Below, piece by piece: positions 2,136-59,073 of a DNA stretch of 64,000 nt. The stretch lies in contig JADLFN010000002.1 of NCBI GenBank assembly GCA_020845475.1, positions 1-64,000 on the forward strand. The letters run 5' to 3'. A model generated the notes under the pieces. It did not search any database, was not told the origin of the DNA, and saw only the letters and a list, made by a program, of their open reading frames with translations. Positions within the stretch are counted from its first letter, which is position 1. The number at the start of each line of letters is the position of its first letter. Source of the DNA: Planctomycetota bacterium (GTDB lineage: Bacteria > Planctomycetota > UBA8742 > UBA2392). The translations under genes were made by a program, and so were the position numbers.

Positions 2136-4763
2136 ATGGGCTCAATGGCCAGACTTGCCATCGTTCTTGCGTTTGTGCTCAGCGCGGCTTTGTGCGCGCA
2201 GGGAGCCATGAAGCCGCCCGCTCCGCCGCAAGCGCCGGACGGCAAGCCCGTAGCGCCGCTGCCGCCAGAGCTCGAGCTGGCGTTCATCGCGCCCGAGGGC
2301 GTCGAGGTGTTTTTTGAATCGTGGCAGGAGCAAATGCCTGACGGCAAGCCCGGCCCCTATGTCGTGGCGCTGCCTTACGCCATTCAGCTCAAGTACCGCG
2401 ATGCCGGCGATGAAAAAACGCCCGCCAAGCGCATGGAACTGCTGGCCGACCAGGCGCTGATCTGGTTCGTGCCTGACAAGCCCGACGAAGCCGGCAAAGA
2501 CCCCCTCGGCACCCTGGCCGGCGGTGTTTCCCACGTGCAGATCTACGGCGAGGGCAACGTGCTGGTGCGCTACGAAGTGGGGCGCGAGACCTTGACCTTG
2601 CGCGCCGACCGCGTGTTCCTTGATTTCGAGCGCGGCCGCATTACTTCATTCAACCTCACGGGAAAGATGGACAACGTGCGCGCGCACACCGGCGGCGACC
2701 CTGATCCGGCCTCGAGCGACGAAGGGCCTGTGCGCGCGGGTATTGGCATCGGTGACGCCGCCGAGAAGGCCAGGAGCGCGCCCGATGATCTCGGCGCTCC
2801 TCCCGGCCAGAGCGATGCGCCCACACCTTCGGGCCAGCCGCGCTCTTTGCCGCAGGAGCGGGGGCAGCGGGTGTTCATGCGCGCCAAGACGCTGCGCGTG
2901 ATTGCGCTGTCCGAGAACCATAAGGAAGTCGAGCTGGAGAACGGCAGCGTTTCCTCGAGTTCGCTGGCGATTGCCAGCTATTCGCTGTCCAGCGAGCGTT
3001 TGCGAGTTGTGGTGCGCAAGGAGCGCAGCACGATTTACACCACACGCCCGGCCGTGCGCATCCTCGACTGGCCGCTGCTGACGCTGCCCGTTGAGGAATA
3101 TCGCTATGACCTCGACAGCGTGTTTCCGATCCGCCAGTTCGACATCATTTCAAACAGCCGCTTTGGACTTTCGCTGCGCACCTACATTGACGCCGTCGCC
3201 GTCTACGATTTTTTCGCCGACCCTGAGCCGCCGTTTCATCCGCTCGCGCTTGGCCCGCAGATTGACTACTACTCCAAGCGCGGCTGGGGCGGCGGAGTCA
3301 ACCTGGACTGGGGCGGCATCCAAGCTTTTGACGAACACGGCCGCGCCAGCCTGCGCACCTATCGCATTGTGGACCGCGGCGACGACCGCAAGCGCGCGCG
3401 CGACCTGGGCTGGTACCCGCTGGAGAACGAGGAGCGCGGGCGCGGGCAATCATGGCTGACCAAGAACTTCGGCGGAGGCTGGCAACTGGACAGCATCTTT
3501 GGCTACTACAGCGATCGCAACTTCCGCCAGGAATTCTACGAGCGCGAACACTACGCGAACTTGCCCACTCAAAGCTTCATCCGCCTCACCAAGCGCTTCA
3601 ACGATATGAATGCCTACCTGTTCATACTGCCGCGTGTGAACCCCTACGAAAGCATGACGGAGTACCTGCCCAACCTGGGCTTTGACGTGCAGCGCACGGC
3701 GGTTGGAGACTTCGGGCTGGTGATGTCAAGCCACACCGATATCGCCATGCTGCGCTGGCAGCCGCCAAAGGATGTCGATGCCGAAATCATCACGGCACCG
3801 CGCGTGGACTCCAGCAACTGGTTCAATATGCCGATCGACCTGCGCTACCTTACGGTCGATCCCTTCGCCGGCGCGCGCGTGACCGTGGCGCAGCAGTTCC
3901 TCGAGATTCCGCGCGGGCCGCGCCCTGGCCTTTCGCCGCAGGGCACTTTTCCGGGCATGAGGCCGGGCGATGACCGCAAGTCGGGGCTGCTCTATCGCAT
4001 CCTGCCGTTCTTTGGCGTGAACATGCAGACGTTTTTCACCGGCACGTTCCCGGGCGTGCGCGTGCCGGGCCTGGGCATTTCCGGCCTGCGCCATGTAATG
4101 CAGCCCTATGTGCGCTACACCAACGTGGCCTACAACAGCCTTGACGACGTTCCCGAGCGCGCGTTTGTTCCTTTCGACAGCGTGGACGTGCTTGACGAGT
4201 TCCATGAAGTGCGTGTGGGCTTTCGCAATCGGCTGCAGACCCGCCAGGGCTGGGGCCAGGATCGCAGAACCGTGGATTACCTCGACCTGCTGGTGGAAGT
4301 TCCGATCTACCCCAACCCGCGCCGCGACAACTTCAATCGCGTGTTTGGCCAGTTCGAGTTCAGCGGCGTGTGGCGGCCCGCTCCGGGCTTTTCCATCTCG
4401 GGCCAGGGATTTTACGACGCTTATGAAGGCACCTTCACGCGCGCCAGCGCCAGCTTCAACATGGACTTCACGGATGTAATGCGCGGCAGCGTTTACTACC
4501 GCCTGCTGCGCGACATTCACCAGGTAATCGGCGTCAACGTGCAGCTCACGCTTTCGGAGGTTTACGGCGTGAAGCTGCTTCAAGAATATGACCTCGAGCA
4601 GGGCAAATTCCGCGACACTCGCATTGAACTCACTCGAGATGTGCTGGAGGCGTTTACGCTGGGGTTTGTGTTCGTGCGCGATGCCGCGCAGGGTGACATC
4701 GGCTTCTATTTCACGATCAGCGCCAGTTTCGCGGGCCCCAGCGGGAGCCGGCTGCTGCGCTAA
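2136..4763 (+). CDS. lptD: LptD/OstA-like outer-membrane LPS-assembly protein
   Basis: This protein probably inserts lipopolysaccharide or a related lipid into the outer membrane. It is 875 residues long and starts with a signal peptide (ARLAIVLAFVLSAALCAQG). The N-terminal half resembles an OstA/LptA beta-jellyroll. A Pro/Gly/Asp-rich linker interrupts it around residues 180-240. A long C-terminal region of alternating aromatic and charged strands is typical of an outer-membrane barrel, and the segment around RILDWPLLTLPVEEYRYD corresponds to the start of the LptD barrel. Internal ATG 2145 is an alternative start. The symbol is used at family level. No lptA, lptB or lptC lies in the window. 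The presence of this gene supports a two-membrane envelope. Confidence 0.75.
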   Translation: MGSMARLAIVLAFVLSAALCAQGAMKPPAPPQAPDGKPVAPLPPELELAFIAPEGVEVFFESWQEQMPDGKPGPYVVALPYAIQLKYRDAGDEKTPAKRMELLADQALIWFVPDKPDEAGKDPLGTLAGGVSHVQIYGEGNVLVRYEVGRETLTLRADRVFLDFERGRITSFNLTGKMDNVRAHTGGDPDPASSDEGPVRAGIGIGDAAEKARSAPDDLGAPPGQSDAPTPSGQPRSLPQERGQRVFMRAKTLRVIALSENHKEVELENGSVSSSSLAIASYSLSSERLRVVVRKERSTIYTTRPAVRILDWPLLTLPVEEYRYDLDSVFPIRQFDIISNSRFGLSLRTYIDAVAVYDFFADPEPPFHPLALGPQIDYYSKRGWGGGVNLDWGGIQAFDEHGRASLRTYRIVDRGDDRKRARDLGWYPLENEERGRGQSWLTKNFGGGWQLDSIFGYYSDRNFRQEFYEREHYANLPTQSFIRLTKRFNDMNAYLFILPRVNPYESMTEYLPNLGFDVQRTAVGDFGLVMSSHTDIAMLRWQPPKDVDAEIITAPRVDSSNWFNMPIDLRYLTVDPFAGARVTVAQQFLEIPRGPRPGLSPQGTFPGMRPGDDRKSGLLYRILPFFGVNMQTFFTGTFPGVRVPGLGISGLRHVMQPYVRYTNVAYNSLDDVPERAFVPFDSVDVLDEFHEVRVGFRNRLQTRQGWGQDRRTVDYLDLLVEVPIYPNPRRDNFNRVFGQFEFSGVWRPAPGFSISGQGFYDAYEGTFTRASASFNMDFTDVMRGSVYYRLLRDIHQVIGVNVQLTLSEVYGVKLLQEYDLEQGKFRDTRIELTRDVLEAFTLGFVFVRDAAQGDIGFYFTISASFAGPSGSRLLR

Positions 4764-4872
4764 GGCGCCATTTGCATTTGCCAATTCACAATGCTCAATT
4801 CACAACACCGCACGCACGCGGGGCTTGTAGATTGAGGCCGCAGATAACAGCCATCACAAAGGGTTGCAGCTT

Positions 4873-6189
4873 ATGAAAATTTCAATCGTCGGTTCCGGCC
4901 ACGTCGGCCTTACCACCGCCATCTGTTTTGCCGAAAAGGGCCACGAAGTTCTCTGCGTGGACCATGACACCGAGAAGCTGGCGCGCCTGAAGAACGGCGA
5001 AGTCTGGTTCCATGAGCCGAAACTGCCGGAGCTGCTCAAGAAACACTTCGCGCAAAAACGCATCCGCTTCTCGGAGAGCACGGCCGAGGCCGTGAAATTC
5101 GCGCAGGCGATATTCATCTGTGTAGGCACCCCCACGGGTGAAAGCGGCCGCGCCGACATGCGCTTTGTCGAAAAGGTCGCACGCGACATCGCCGAAAGCA
5201 TCACCGAGTATCGCCTGATCGTCGAAAAGAGCACCGTCCCGATCATGACCGGCGACCGCGTGAAAAACACGATCCGCCGTTACGTCAAGAGCGACGCGCA
5301 TTTTGACGTGGCCAGCAATCCCGAATTCCTGCGCGAAGGCAGCGCCATTGACGACACGCTCAAGCCCGACCGCATCGTGATCGGCGTTGATTCCGCCAAG
5401 GCGGAAACGCTGCTGCGCGAAATCTACGCGCCCTTTGAAGCGCCCATGATTGTTACCAGCATCGGCAGCGCCGAGCTCATCAAACACGCCAGCAACAGCT
5501 TCCTGGCGCTCAAGATCAGCTTCATCAACTGGATTGCGCGAGTGTGCGAACACAGCGGCGCCGACGTGCACGAAGTCGCGCGCGGCATGGGCCTCGATGC
5601 GCGCATCGGCGCGCACTTTCTCAATCCCGGCATCGGCTATGGCGGCAGTTGCTTCCCCAAGGATGTTGAAGCGCTCGCAGCCATCAGCGAAGACATGGGC
5701 GTGGAAGCGCCGCTGATCCGTTTGATCAGCCAGATCAACCGTGAGCAGCGTGAGCACTTCTACGAAACGATCCAGCACGAACTGTGGGTGCTGCAGGACA
5801 AGACGCTGGCCTTCTGGGGCCTGAGCTTCAAACCCAACACCGATGACCTGCGCGAAGCGCCCAGCGTGTGGCTTGCGCAGAAGCTGCTCAAGGCCGGGGC
5901 GAAGCTGCGCGTACACGACCCCGTGGCCATGCCCGCCTTCAAGAAACTCGTGCCTGACGCTTACTTCGCACGCGATCCGCTGGATGCCACCAGCGGCGCC
6001 GACGCGCTCGTGGTCTGCACCGAGTGGCCGCAGTATCGCGATGTCGATCTCGCCAAGGTCAAGGCCACCCTGCGCGTGCCGATGATTTTCGACGGACGCA
6101 ATGCGCTGGACCGCAAACAGGCCGAGGATCTGGGCATGACGCTGATCGGGATTGGCAAAAAGCGCATCGGCCCGCACGCCAAACGTTAG
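4873..6189 (+). CDS. ugd: UDP-glucose 6-dehydrogenase
   Basis: The enzyme oxidises UDP-glucose to UDP-glucuronate with two NAD+, supplying sugar acids for surface polysaccharides. The Rossmann motif GSGHVGL lies at the N-terminus. VGTPTGESGRADM and ASNPEFLREGSAIDD are family signatures, and the catalytic cysteine sits in GGSCFPKD. The length of 438 residues is standard. I prefer ATG 4873 over an in-frame TTG nine bases earlier because similarity starts at MKISIVGSG. AAAGGG lies just upstream as a weak ribosome site. It shares a strand with lptD-like and tsaD, but gaps of about 110 and 25 bp leave co-transcription open. Confidence 0.95.
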   Translation: MKISIVGSGHVGLTTAICFAEKGHEVLCVDHDTEKLARLKNGEVWFHEPKLPELLKKHFAQKRIRFSESTAEAVKFAQAIFICVGTPTGESGRADMRFVEKVARDIAESITEYRLIVEKSTVPIMTGDRVKNTIRRYVKSDAHFDVASNPEFLREGSAIDDTLKPDRIVIGVDSAKAETLLREIYAPFEAPMIVTSIGSAELIKHASNSFLALKISFINWIARVCEHSGADVHEVARGMGLDARIGAHFLNPGIGYGGSCFPKDVEALAAISEDMGVEAPLIRLISQINREQREHFYETIQHELWVLQDKTLAFWGLSFKPNTDDLREAPSVWLAQKLLKAGAKLRVHDPVAMPAFKKLVPDAYFARDPLDATSGADALVVCTEWPQYRDVDLAKVKATLRVPMIFDGRNALDRKQAEDLGMTLIGIGKKRIGPHAKR

Positions 6190-55495: not shown

Positions 55496-55670
55496 CGCAA
55501 CATTCTCACATTGACGTGTCAAGAGGATCTCCGGGACCCCTGACGGCAAGGCCGCTTTCCGCACCTGAAAAAAGGCTTCCATTGCCACGGGTGGGCATGG
55601 CGCCTTTGCCTCGTGACTGGATGCTTGCCCCTTGCCGCGAGTTCACTATTGTCTGAACAACGGAGGCTCC

Positions 55671-56825
55671 ATGCTCAACAAATTCAAGCGTATCGTGTTT
55701 CCCACCGATTTCGGCGAAACCGCCCAGAGCGCCCTGCGCGTGGCAGCGGCCATGGCGGGCTACTACAACGCTCAGCTCGATGTCGTGACGGTGGTGGACT
55801 CGACGGTTTACGCCTACGCGGGCTACCCCTTTGCCACGCTTGCGCAAGACTTGATGAAGAGCGCTGAAGAGCAGCTCGAGAAACTCAAGCTTCCCGAGGA
55901 AGCCAAGGGCGTGACAGTCAAGCGCTTTGTGCTTTCCGGAAGTGCGGGCCATGAAATTTCTGATCACGCACGGCGCCACAGCGCTGATTTGATCGTAATG
56001 GCAACCCATGGCCGCGGCGCCGTTGCACGTTTCTTTCTGGGGAGCATCGCTGACAAAGTGCTGCACTCCGCGCCATGCTCAGTGCTTGTGCTGCGCAAGC
56101 CCGAGGAATCCGCCAAGGAACATGCCAAGGCCGCCAAGAAGAAAGGCCAGCCTGTCAGCAAGATTTTAGTGCCGACGGATTTCTCGCCCACTTCCCAGTT
56201 GGCCGTCAACCGTGCCATTGCCTTGACTGAAGACTACGACGCCGAACTTGTGCTTCTCCACGTCATCGACGATGACTTGATCAGCACGCACGTTCAGGCC
56301 GAGCGCGAGATGATTCTCAAGCAACTCCAGTCTCATGCGCTGTCCGAAATGAAGGCATTGCTGCCCAAAGAACTCGTGGACAATTTCCACACCATCGGCG
56401 CTGTGAAACGAGGCAACCCTGCCAAGGTCATTCCCGCGTTCGCGGAGAGCCACGATTGCGATTTGATTGTCATGGGCAGCCACGGCCGCACCGGCCTGGG
56501 CCGCGTGTTGCTTGGCAGCGTGGCCGATGGCGTGGTGCGCAATGCGAAGTGCCCGGTGTTCATCGAACGCGCCAAACAAGCCGAGGAGATCCAGAGTGAA
56601 ATGGCGAAGAAGGCTCGCGTTCTTGGCGCAAAGTTGACCGCGCGGGGCAATGGCGTACTCAGCGGCGGCCCAGCCACCGGCTCCGAGGATTTCAAGGCGG
56701 TCAAGCCGCTGCGCTCGGGTTCGCGCGTGGATGAAGAACTGCCCGAACCCGTCAAGCGTTCCAAAATGAAATCGGGGCGCATCGCGCCCGCGAGCTCCGA
56801 AAAGTCCGAAGGCGACCTGCCCTAG
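55671..56825 (+). CDS. tandem universal stress protein (two UspA domains)
   Basis: The protein has 384 residues. Domain 1 (~1-148) and domain 2 (~160-305) each carry the ATP-binding pattern G-2x-G-9x-G-S: THGRGAVARFFLGSIADKV and SHGRTGLGRVLLGSVADGV. The domains would form an intramolecular version of the usual Usp dimer. A basic, Ser/Pro-rich tail of ~75 residues follows without recognisable domain. GGAGG four bases before ATG 55671 decides the start. It is divergent from the riboswitch-controlled transporter and is followed by a strong terminator. Confidence 0.92.
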   Translation: MLNKFKRIVFPTDFGETAQSALRVAAAMAGYYNAQLDVVTVVDSTVYAYAGYPFATLAQDLMKSAEEQLEKLKLPEEAKGVTVKRFVLSGSAGHEISDHARRHSADLIVMATHGRGAVARFFLGSIADKVLHSAPCSVLVLRKPEESAKEHAKAAKKKGQPVSKILVPTDFSPTSQLAVNRAIALTEDYDAELVLLHVIDDDLISTHVQAEREMILKQLQSHALSEMKALLPKELVDNFHTIGAVKRGNPAKVIPAFAESHDCDLIVMGSHGRTGLGRVLLGSVADGVVRNAKCPVFIERAKQAEEIQSEMAKKARVLGAKLTARGNGVLSGGPATGSEDFKAVKPLRSGSRVDEELPEPVKRSKMKSGRIAPASSEKSEGDLP

Positions 56826-56892: not shown

Positions 56893-57882
56893 CTACTTGC
56901 CCTCTCCGTCAAGTCCTTCGAGAACCTTCTTGGCAGTTTCCACCCATTGGTGATCGGCGGGGCCCGCCTCGACCACGGCTTTGAGTTCTTTACGCGCAGT
57001 ATCTTTGTCGCCGGCCTGAGCAGAAAGATAAGCGGCATACACGCGATACTCGATGGCTTTGTCGTGCTTGGGGAACAATCCGACGCACGTGAGCAGAGCT
57101 TCGCGCGCTTCTTTGAATTCGCCCGCTTTCCAGTGGCCCATCATCACGCCGTGAACGGACTCCATGGCGCGCTCATCCTTGGCCTTGACGAAGGCTTCAG
57201 TAAGTTCCTTGCACAGGGCCACACCACGCTCGCTGTCCTTGTCGTCATCGCCTTTGAGCAACGCGTCGGCGAGCTTGAGCTTGACGTCGAGGACTCGCTT
57301 GTCGTCTTTGGGCAAAGCCGCGAGCACTTCTTCGAGCAACTTGGCAGCATCAGCCAGGCGCGAAAGCTTCAGGTAAGTCTCCGCCAGTTTGAGCGAAACA
57401 TCGACATCTTTGGCATCTTTGGCGTGCTTGGCTTCAAGGTCGCTGACGTCCTTGAGCGCAGATGAAATGTTCTCAAACCACTTCGCGGCATCAGCCGCCG
57501 TAGAGAACGGCGCGCCCACCTGCTTCACGAGCGTCTTCTCCTTGTTGTCCGCGATCACCAGCGTAGGCATGGCCGAAACGCCGTACTGCTTGGCGGTGGC
57601 CTCGTCCTTGTCAACATCTACAAGTATTGCAATGAAGTCCTTGGCGATGCGCTCTCCGAGCGCCTTGTCCGGCCACACCTTTTTGGCCAGATTCTTGCAG
57701 GGACCTCACCACTCCGCCGTGAACTCAATGAACATCGGCTTGTTGGCTTTGACGGCCGCTTCGAGACCCTTCTTGTAGTCGGTCTCCCACTTCACGCCCT
57801 CGGCAGAATCGCCGGCGAAAAGCGGTGCGGCGCAAAACGCGACAAGCAGGGCCAGCAGGCCCAGTTTCGCACTCATGCGCAT
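56893..57882 (-). CDS. exported thioredoxin-like/TPR protein, probable selenoprotein (in-frame UGA at the active site)
   Basis: The frame from ATG 57882 (GGGAG six bases upstream) to 56893 is open except for one TGA at 57706-57708, codon 59 of 329. Around it the protein reads FIEFTAEW-(UGA)-GPCKNLAKKVWP, so UGA replaces the first Cys of the thioredoxin WCGPC motif. The thioredoxin fold continues normally (AILVDVDKDEATAKQYGVSAMPTLVI with the cis-Pro), and TPR-like helices fill the C-terminal half. A signal peptide (KLGLLALLVAFCAAPLFAG) leads. Selenocysteine at a redox Cys is the best explanation, with a SECIS-like hairpin just downstream. A point mutation or sequencing error giving a broken gene is the alternative. 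Confidence 0.75.
57668..57691 (-). promoter_or_regulatory. candidate bacterial SECIS hairpin
   Basis: On the minus-strand mRNA UCUGGCC pairs with GGCCGGA (seven pairs, one G-U) around the ten-base loop AAAAAGGUGU. The stem starts 14 bases and the loop about 21 bases after the UGA, within the spacing used by bacterial SelB-binding SECIS elements. The loop lacks an early G in the strict consensus, so support is moderate. Confidence 0.4.
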
Positions 57883-57974: not shown

Positions 57975-58997
57975 CTATTCGCCCAGCAGTTTGACCAAAA
58001 GCGCTTTCTGCGCGTGCAGCCGGTTCTCGGCCTGCTGGTAAACCACGCAGTCTTCGCCATCAAGCACCGCGTCATCCACCACCACGTTGCGCCGCACCGG
58101 CAGGCAGTGCATGAATTTGGCGCGGCTTGTTTGCGCCATCTTGTCTTCGTTGACGGTCCAGCTGGGCAGTGTGGCGCGGTAGGCCAGTTCTTCCTTTGGC
58201 TTGCCGTAGAACTCGCGTGAAAGCCAGCTCTTGGCGTAGATTACTTCAGCGCCGTCGAACGCCGCGGCCTGGTCGTGTGTGACTTCCACCTTGCCGCCTG
58301 CGGCTTTGGCAACTTTCTTGGCCTGCTCGACGAGTTCAGGCTCGAGTTCCATTTTGGGAGGGTGCGCCACCGTCACGTTGCATCCGCCCATCGCTGCGGC
58401 CATGAGGAACGAGTGCGGCACGGCCAGCGGCAACGGCTTGATGTGAGGCGCCCACGAGAGCACGACTTTCTTCTTCTTGGTCACACCGTTGAACACTTCG
58501 CGCAGCGTCATGAGATCGGCCAGGCCCTGGCACGGGTGTTCAACCGCGCTTTCCAGGTTGATCAGTGGCGTGCTTGAATACTTCGAGAACGCACTCAGAA
58601 TCGGGTCTGCTTTGTCGTCTTCGTAGTTCTTCATCTTGGGAAAACTGCGCACGCAGATAACGTCGCCGTAGCGCGAGAGCACTTTAGCCGCGTCTTTGAT
58701 GTGCTCGGGGCGGTCGCCGTCCATGACGATGCCCTCTTTCCACTCGAGGTCCCATGAATCCTGGCCGACATTGAGCACCACGGGGTGCGCTCCGAGCTGA
58801 TAGGTGCCGATCTCAAAGCTGGTGCGAGTGCGCAGGCTGGAATTGAAAAACAGCATGATCACAGTCTTGCCCGAAAGCGACCAGCTTCGTTGTTCCTTCT
58901 TCATTTCCATCGCGAGGTCGATGACGGAGTTGATTTCTTCGGCAGTGAAGTCAGCGAGGCGGATGAAGTCGCGCCCGCGTATGTCTACTTTGGCCAT
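57975..58997 (-). CDS. argF': N-acetylornithine (or N-succinylornithine) carbamoyltransferase
   Basis: This 340-residue member of the carbamoyltransferase family acts in arginine synthesis. The carbamoyl-phosphate loop is SSLRTRTSFE; HPCQGLADLMTLREVF and FMHCLPVRRNVVVDDAVLD are the other active-site motifs. WKEGIVMDGDRPEHI and the CLPVRRNVVV form are features of the acetyl/succinylornithine subfamily rather than standard ornithine transcarbamylase. This implies an arginine route that keeps the acyl group until late. ATG 58997 is set by homology; the upstream in-frame extension has none. It is divergent from the phosphomannomutase gene. Confidence 0.88.
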   Translation of the reverse strand: MAKVDIRGRDFIRLADFTAEEINSVIDLAMEMKKEQRSWSLSGKTVIMLFFNSSLRTRTSFEIGTYQLGAHPVVLNVGQDSWDLEWKEGIVMDGDRPEHIKDAAKVLSRYGDVICVRSFPKMKNYEDDKADPILSAFSKYSSTPLINLESAVEHPCQGLADLMTLREVFNGVTKKKKVVLSWAPHIKPLPLAVPHSFLMAAAMGGCNVTVAHPPKMELEPELVEQAKKVAKAAGGKVEVTHDQAAAFDGAEVIYAKSWLSREFYGKPKEELAYRATLPSWTVNEDKMAQTSRAKFMHCLPVRRNVVVDDAVLDGEDCVVYQQAENRLHAQKALLVKLLGE

Positions 58998-59073
58998 GGC
59001 GATTTTCCCTGTGGGCGCGCGAATCATGCGATTTAACCGGCGCATGTAAAGCATCGCCACGAATGCCTCTGTA

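Follow-up and report, generated by a model that had tools for sequence, protein, structure and literature searches.

A probable selenocysteine-containing, exported thioredoxin with a TPR domain in a planctomycete genome

Is a thioredoxin gene whose first redox codon is TGA a broken gene, a leaky one, or a gene for a selenoprotein? The question is raised by a reading frame in the first 64,000 nucleotides of contig JADLFN010000002.1 of a Planctomycetota draft genome (GCA_020845475.1), the whole of which stretch is referred to below as the window. Comparisons among related sequences give strong support to selenocysteine (Sec) at the in-frame TGA of what appears to be an exported thioredoxin. We set out below the gene and its predicted product, then the decoding of the TGA, and then the unusual active sites found elsewhere in the family.

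Gene architecture and predicted fold

An earlier note on this DNA had placed the gene at 56893-57882, and these coordinates hold, but the gene lies on the minus strand (57882 to 56893); translation of the plus strand gives nothing coherent and no gene. Read in the correct direction, 329 codons, including one putative Sec, run from MRMSAKLG to EGK and a TAG stop, and the only internal TGA (57708-57706, minus strand) falls, as had been claimed, on the first redox Cys position of a thioredoxin motif (FTAEW-TGA-GPCKNLA). This codon would be Sec59 of W-U-G-P-C, with Cys62 (57697-57699) as the resolving residue of UxxC and Pro106 of an AMPT motif (57565-57567) at what we take to be the thioredoxin cis-Pro position. 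Open reading frame calling under table 11 puts the protein start at codon 69, that is, 3' of the TGA, and the active site is lost from a standard annotation. The gene is flanked upstream by an argF-like (ornithine carbamoyltransferase) gene (57975-59060, minus strand) and on the other side by a convergent universal-stress-protein-like gene (55632-56825, plus strand), both named by eye and recognized again in the synteny described below.

With the TGA read as a residue, residues 40-124 (57511-57765) match the Pfam Thioredoxin model PF00085 (E = 1.7e-16, 60.5 bits against a cut-off of 23.5), and a search of the genome returns the same stretch with one TGA in it. The PF13098, PF13899 and DsbH models match the protein more weakly, and the ordinary TrxA equivalog TIGR01068 stays below threshold (52.4 bits against a curated cut-off of 96.8). 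The signal peptide and TPR tail described in the earlier note both find a place in the corrected translation: residues 1-23 (57814-57882) look by eye like a probable signal peptide (MRMSAKLGLLALLVAFCAAPLFA followed by GDS), and several Pfam TPR models match the all-helical region formed by residues 129-326 (56905-57498). An AlphaFold2 model built from the window protein and seven homologues (pLDDT 89.3) shows a thioredoxin domain and then ten helices; only residues 1-26 are disordered.

The best Foldseek match to this model is Escherichia coli YbbN (E = 6.4e-8), in which the thioredoxin domain likewise stands at the N-terminus and the TPR domain at the C-terminus. This match, together with the retention of the TPR domain across homologues, favours a reading that bears on function rather than on Sec, namely that Sec is inserted but that the protein acts mainly as a holdase or chaperedoxin of the YbbN/CnoX kind, its redox site serving the rescue of clients held as mixed disulfides. 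We regard that role as possible but doubtful: superposition of the model on YbbN/CnoX (3qou and 3qdn) is globally poor (TM 0.25 and 0.29, rmsd 21), the canonical WUGPC suggests a reductase, and the window protein looks exported, whereas YbbN is cytosolic and is not known to have Sec or a signal peptide. NCBIfam makes no assignment of the window protein to YbbN, and, the superposition of the model being poor, we do not file it under YbbN/CnoX. We take the protein to be a likely exported selenium thiol-disulfide reductase with a TPR domain, probably located in the periplasm. In such an enzyme the Sec59 selenolate would attack a substrate disulfide, sulfenic acid or other oxidised group, Cys62 would resolve the resulting selenenylsulfide as in other UxxC thioredoxins, and the TPR domain would probably hold clients or partner proteins.

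Decoding of the in-frame UGA

The earlier note had reasoned that a chance mutation would rarely strike exactly this codon, and the homologues bear this out. A search of 16 genomes from the same genus and family (G000-G015, E 1e-12) found a homologue in 12 and none in four, and in every one of the 12 best matches, at about 32-76% identity to the window protein, the aligned redox codon is TGA. Eleven of these active sites read WUGPC and one (G004) FUVPC, while other members of the phylum have WUGAC, WUGYC, WUGSC or WUGVC. The U/CxxC residues, Cys62 included, and the Pro-Thr at the presumed cis-Pro site (P106 and T107) are invariant across the 12-row alignment. Over the 268 codons that follow the TGA, dN/dS is 0.104 and 0.109 for the window genome (G000) against its congeners G001 and G002 and 0.086 for G001 against G002, similar to the values before it for the three same-genus pairs (0.16, 0.14 and 0.08), and in some pairs the synonymous sites are close to saturation; constraint is weaker between G012 and G009 (0.54 after the TGA). 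By these ratios, purifying selection continues 3' of the TGA.

The genome, a fragmented draft that is 77% complete, contains all four of the genes by which the earlier note had proposed to judge the case. Profile searches found selA (535 bits, cut-off 268), selB (319 bits, cut-off 242) and selD (374 bits, cut-off 125), and a tRNA-Sec with anticodon TCA (UCA) adjoins selA, close downstream. The selD frame itself has one in-frame TGA, presumably at the usual position of Sec in Sec-SelD. Taken by itself, SelA does not discriminate: 91 of the 119 relatives match it, 85 of them above the cut-off. TGA is also an ordinary stop here, as had been asserted: among 53 long ORFs that were chosen mechanically in the window, 22 end in it, and general recoding of TGA is therefore ruled out.

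Active-site TGA codons recur in other redox proteins of the genome. Twelve of its 22 AhpC-TSA matches have one in-frame TGA (e.g. L106, L107, L108, L110 and L111), and in all five genes of this type that were read the TGA lies at the redox position, in the motifs WUGPC (twice, in TlpA-like proteins), TGVUGTE, PVUTIQ and WUAYC. In the TrxA-like protein, which shows no obvious signal peptide, the motif is WCGPC. With so many redox proteins of this kind, Sec in an exported thioredoxin fits the habit of the organism, which, judged from its genome sequence, looks like a selenoprotein-rich planctomycete.

The RNA downstream of the TGA is less telling. A candidate SECIS hairpin (57668-57691, minus strand) with an 8-bp stem and an 8-nt loop begins 14 nt 3' of the TGA, and a weaker alternative presents a GG loop 17 nt 3' of it. 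The published bSECIS rule asks for a hairpin 16-37 nt downstream with a G in the apical loop and an MFE <= -7.5 (PMC13188914, Fig. 2 legend). A loose model of this kind fits the window gene (-9.8 kcal/mol, with the loop GGCCAAAA 17 nt past the UGA), and it fits most Cys controls too. Compared with 300 synonymous recodings, the hairpin of the window gene is not stronger by MFE (p = 0.15) or by the bSECIS-style measure (p = 0.37). Distinctive hairpins by the latter measure occur in the homologues of G013 (0/300), G004 (p = 0.010) and G006 (p = 0.020); those of G001 and G002 are borderline on the bSECIS measure only, and those of G012, G010, G008, G003 and G009 are not distinctive (p >= 0.26 on both measures). 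The five Cys controls gave bSECIS-style p values of 0.07-0.44, with one at 0.03 on plain MFE. With a folding z of -0.36, controls that fit and recodings that yield no significance, we dropped the SECIS as a stand-alone proof; since the hairpin of the window gene is not distinctive, the case for Sec rests on conservation and machinery.

UGA is the leakiest stop codon in many bacteria, and the window gene, taken alone, is without a strong SECIS. Both points would suit read-through by a near-cognate tRNA (e.g. tRNA-Trp or tRNA-Cys), or a regulated stop that yields two products, in place of Sec. We consider this very unlikely given a UGA exactly at the redox Cys in 12 of 12 homologues, a complete set of Sec genes, and further active-site UGAs in the peroxiredoxin-like and TlpA-like proteins of the same genome. 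Hardly credible at all is the idea that the TGA arose by recent nonsense mutation or by faulty assembly, with the gene broken or the true codon TGC or TGT: the genome is a draft, a Cys form occurs in related genomes and TGC is one base change from TGA, but 12 genomes assembled independently of one another, at about 32-76% identity, have TGA at this codon, and constraint extends over 268 codons past it. Sec is the reading that we prefer, and the UGA at 57708-57706 is very probably decoded by the organism's own SelA, SelB, SelC and SelD, which an RNA hairpin just 3' of the UGA would guide. The full-length product would be an exported thioredoxin with W-Sec-Gly-Pro-Cys and a TPR domain.

Cys counterparts and putative Sec-Sec paralogues

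Five of the nine named homologous loci (L084, L085, L090, L091 and L092) have the same neighbours as the window gene, and L086-L089 do not. One flank consists, by eye, of an argF-like gene, a phosphomannomutase-like gene and one more gene; a universal-stress-like gene occupies the opposite flank. The active site encoded in these conserved argF-trx-usp loci is WUGPC (TGA) in four and WCGPC (TGC) in the fifth (L092, from G010); four further Cys paralogues are known from the family. Loci L092 (JABTUE010000003.1) and L090 (JAHBXZ010000002.1), which belong to one genus, have the argF-trx-usp arrangement in common, with TGC in the first and TGA in the second. The tree places the Cys copy from G010 and the Sec copy from G007 as sisters (support 100/98); G007 is a genome of the same genus, its gene occupies the same locus, and the two proteins are 52% identical. 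The pair suggests, at the level of sequence, one change from Sec to Cys, a direction called rare in bacteria by a 2026 review (PMC13188914, section 10); because the deeper forks of the tree are weak, it may instead have run from Cys to Sec.

Two other family members deserve mention. The Sec copy of G010 (L020/L087) continues without TAA or TAG for hundreds of codons past the homologous end, perhaps through an assembly slip, and a G004 protein (L054:1136-2122) has neither Cys nor Sec at the active site.

A more striking form of the active site appears to be encoded by TGATGA. One such paralogue lies near a contig end in the window genome itself (L046:1455-2501, which is G000:C18:97754-98800; HGGG-UU-GTTARPEAALW), and two lie on contig C48 of G004 (L047:1535-2671 and 4363-5412; IGGG-UU-GTTPRPEAALW and AGGG-UU-GPPAQPEAALD), where they and the FUVPC gene form a tandem array next to an argF fragment. 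Counted without gaps to the Trp further on (an Asp in the third paralogue), the second U coincides with the Sec of WUGPC. The three proteins group together in the tree (support 89/94). Pfam matches TPR models in them but no thioredoxin model, and a profile made from them recovers the WUGPC proteins from eight genomes (E 1e-44 to 1e-55). Just past each site stands a strong SECIS-like hairpin (GCGGCC-GGA-GGCCGC, CGCGGCC-GGA-GGCCGCG and, with changes that are paired, GCGCAGCC-GGA-GGCTGCGC), whose GGA loop lies 17 nt past the second UGA and whose bSECIS-style p values against recodings are 0.007-0.037. A search of 392 genomes of the phylum with the A2 profile, in which the best five candidates of each genome were scored (against up to 17 in another profile search), gave Sec-Sec in G000 and G004 alone, and the two best other new matches (L120 and L121), when read, held no further Sec-Sec gene. 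A genome from another family of the same order (G016) has two UGPU genes (L048:1399-2604 and L061:1332-2540), in which both redox positions read as Sec; both UGA codons have the hairpin GCGTCT-GGTC-AGACGC in common, and the hairpins of the two genes do not stand out from their recodings (p = 0.13 and 0.43).

We think it reasonably probable that the active site of this family has been remodelled repeatedly around selenium, giving WUGPC, a same-locus WCGPC, UGPU and GGG-Sec-Sec-Gly, and that in the last of these a bacterial ribosome decodes two successive UGAs from one SECIS. The first Sec of UU would replace the Trp and stand in for the downstream Cys that has been lost, so that catalysis would pass through a vicinal diselenide. 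The Sec-Sec paralogues are the part of this work most worth following. If they are real, their tandem UGAs make it testable whether one SECIS lets bacterial SelB serve two consecutive UGAs, and the natural series WUGPC, WCGPC, UGPU and GGGUUG lets one ask what selenium buys in a thioredoxin site.

Comparison with known systems

The word stem 'planctomycet' occurs 0 times in the 2022 and 2026 reviews (PMC9312934 and PMC13188914), and the selenoproteins of two planctomycetes are listed in PMC4807772; with the present gene, a phylum that is seldom named in selenoprotein surveys would gain a Sec thioredoxin that is exported and bears a TPR domain. Our search of the open-licence literature in PubMed Central found neither a Trx-TPR selenoprotein nor a bacterial case of Sec-Sec, and Table 1 of the 2026 catalogue (PMC13188914) lists no Trx-TPR selenoprotein and no UU motif.

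UxxC Sec thioredoxins are themselves already known. The same table has the Sec thioredoxin (PF00085, UxxC; e.g. WP_010956703.1) as an experimentally verified family, and the window protein resembles it in its thioredoxin fold and in the Sec at the first position of UxxC. The catalogue entry carries the bare Pfam thioredoxin label, whereas the window protein has in addition a TPR domain and what is probably a signal peptide; this variant, an exported Trx-TPR protein, is not listed in the 2026 catalogue. The thiol:disulfide interchange protein of that table (PF13098, UxxC), with DsbD-gamma and DsbH, offers a second likeness in its exported thioredoxin-like domain with UxxC. It differs in that PF00085 scores best for the window protein, and a TPR domain follows in place of a membrane or DsbD context. 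For the Sec-Sec paralogues, the nearest parallel is the algal PDI_e, whose GUGUU motif is described in PMC7539508 as the first consecutive Sec found. Both are proteins of the thioredoxin superfamily with two consecutive Sec residues, but PDI_e is eukaryotic and uses a eukaryotic SECIS, whereas the paralogues described here are bacterial, have a GGGUUG motif and carry their hairpin just downstream of it.
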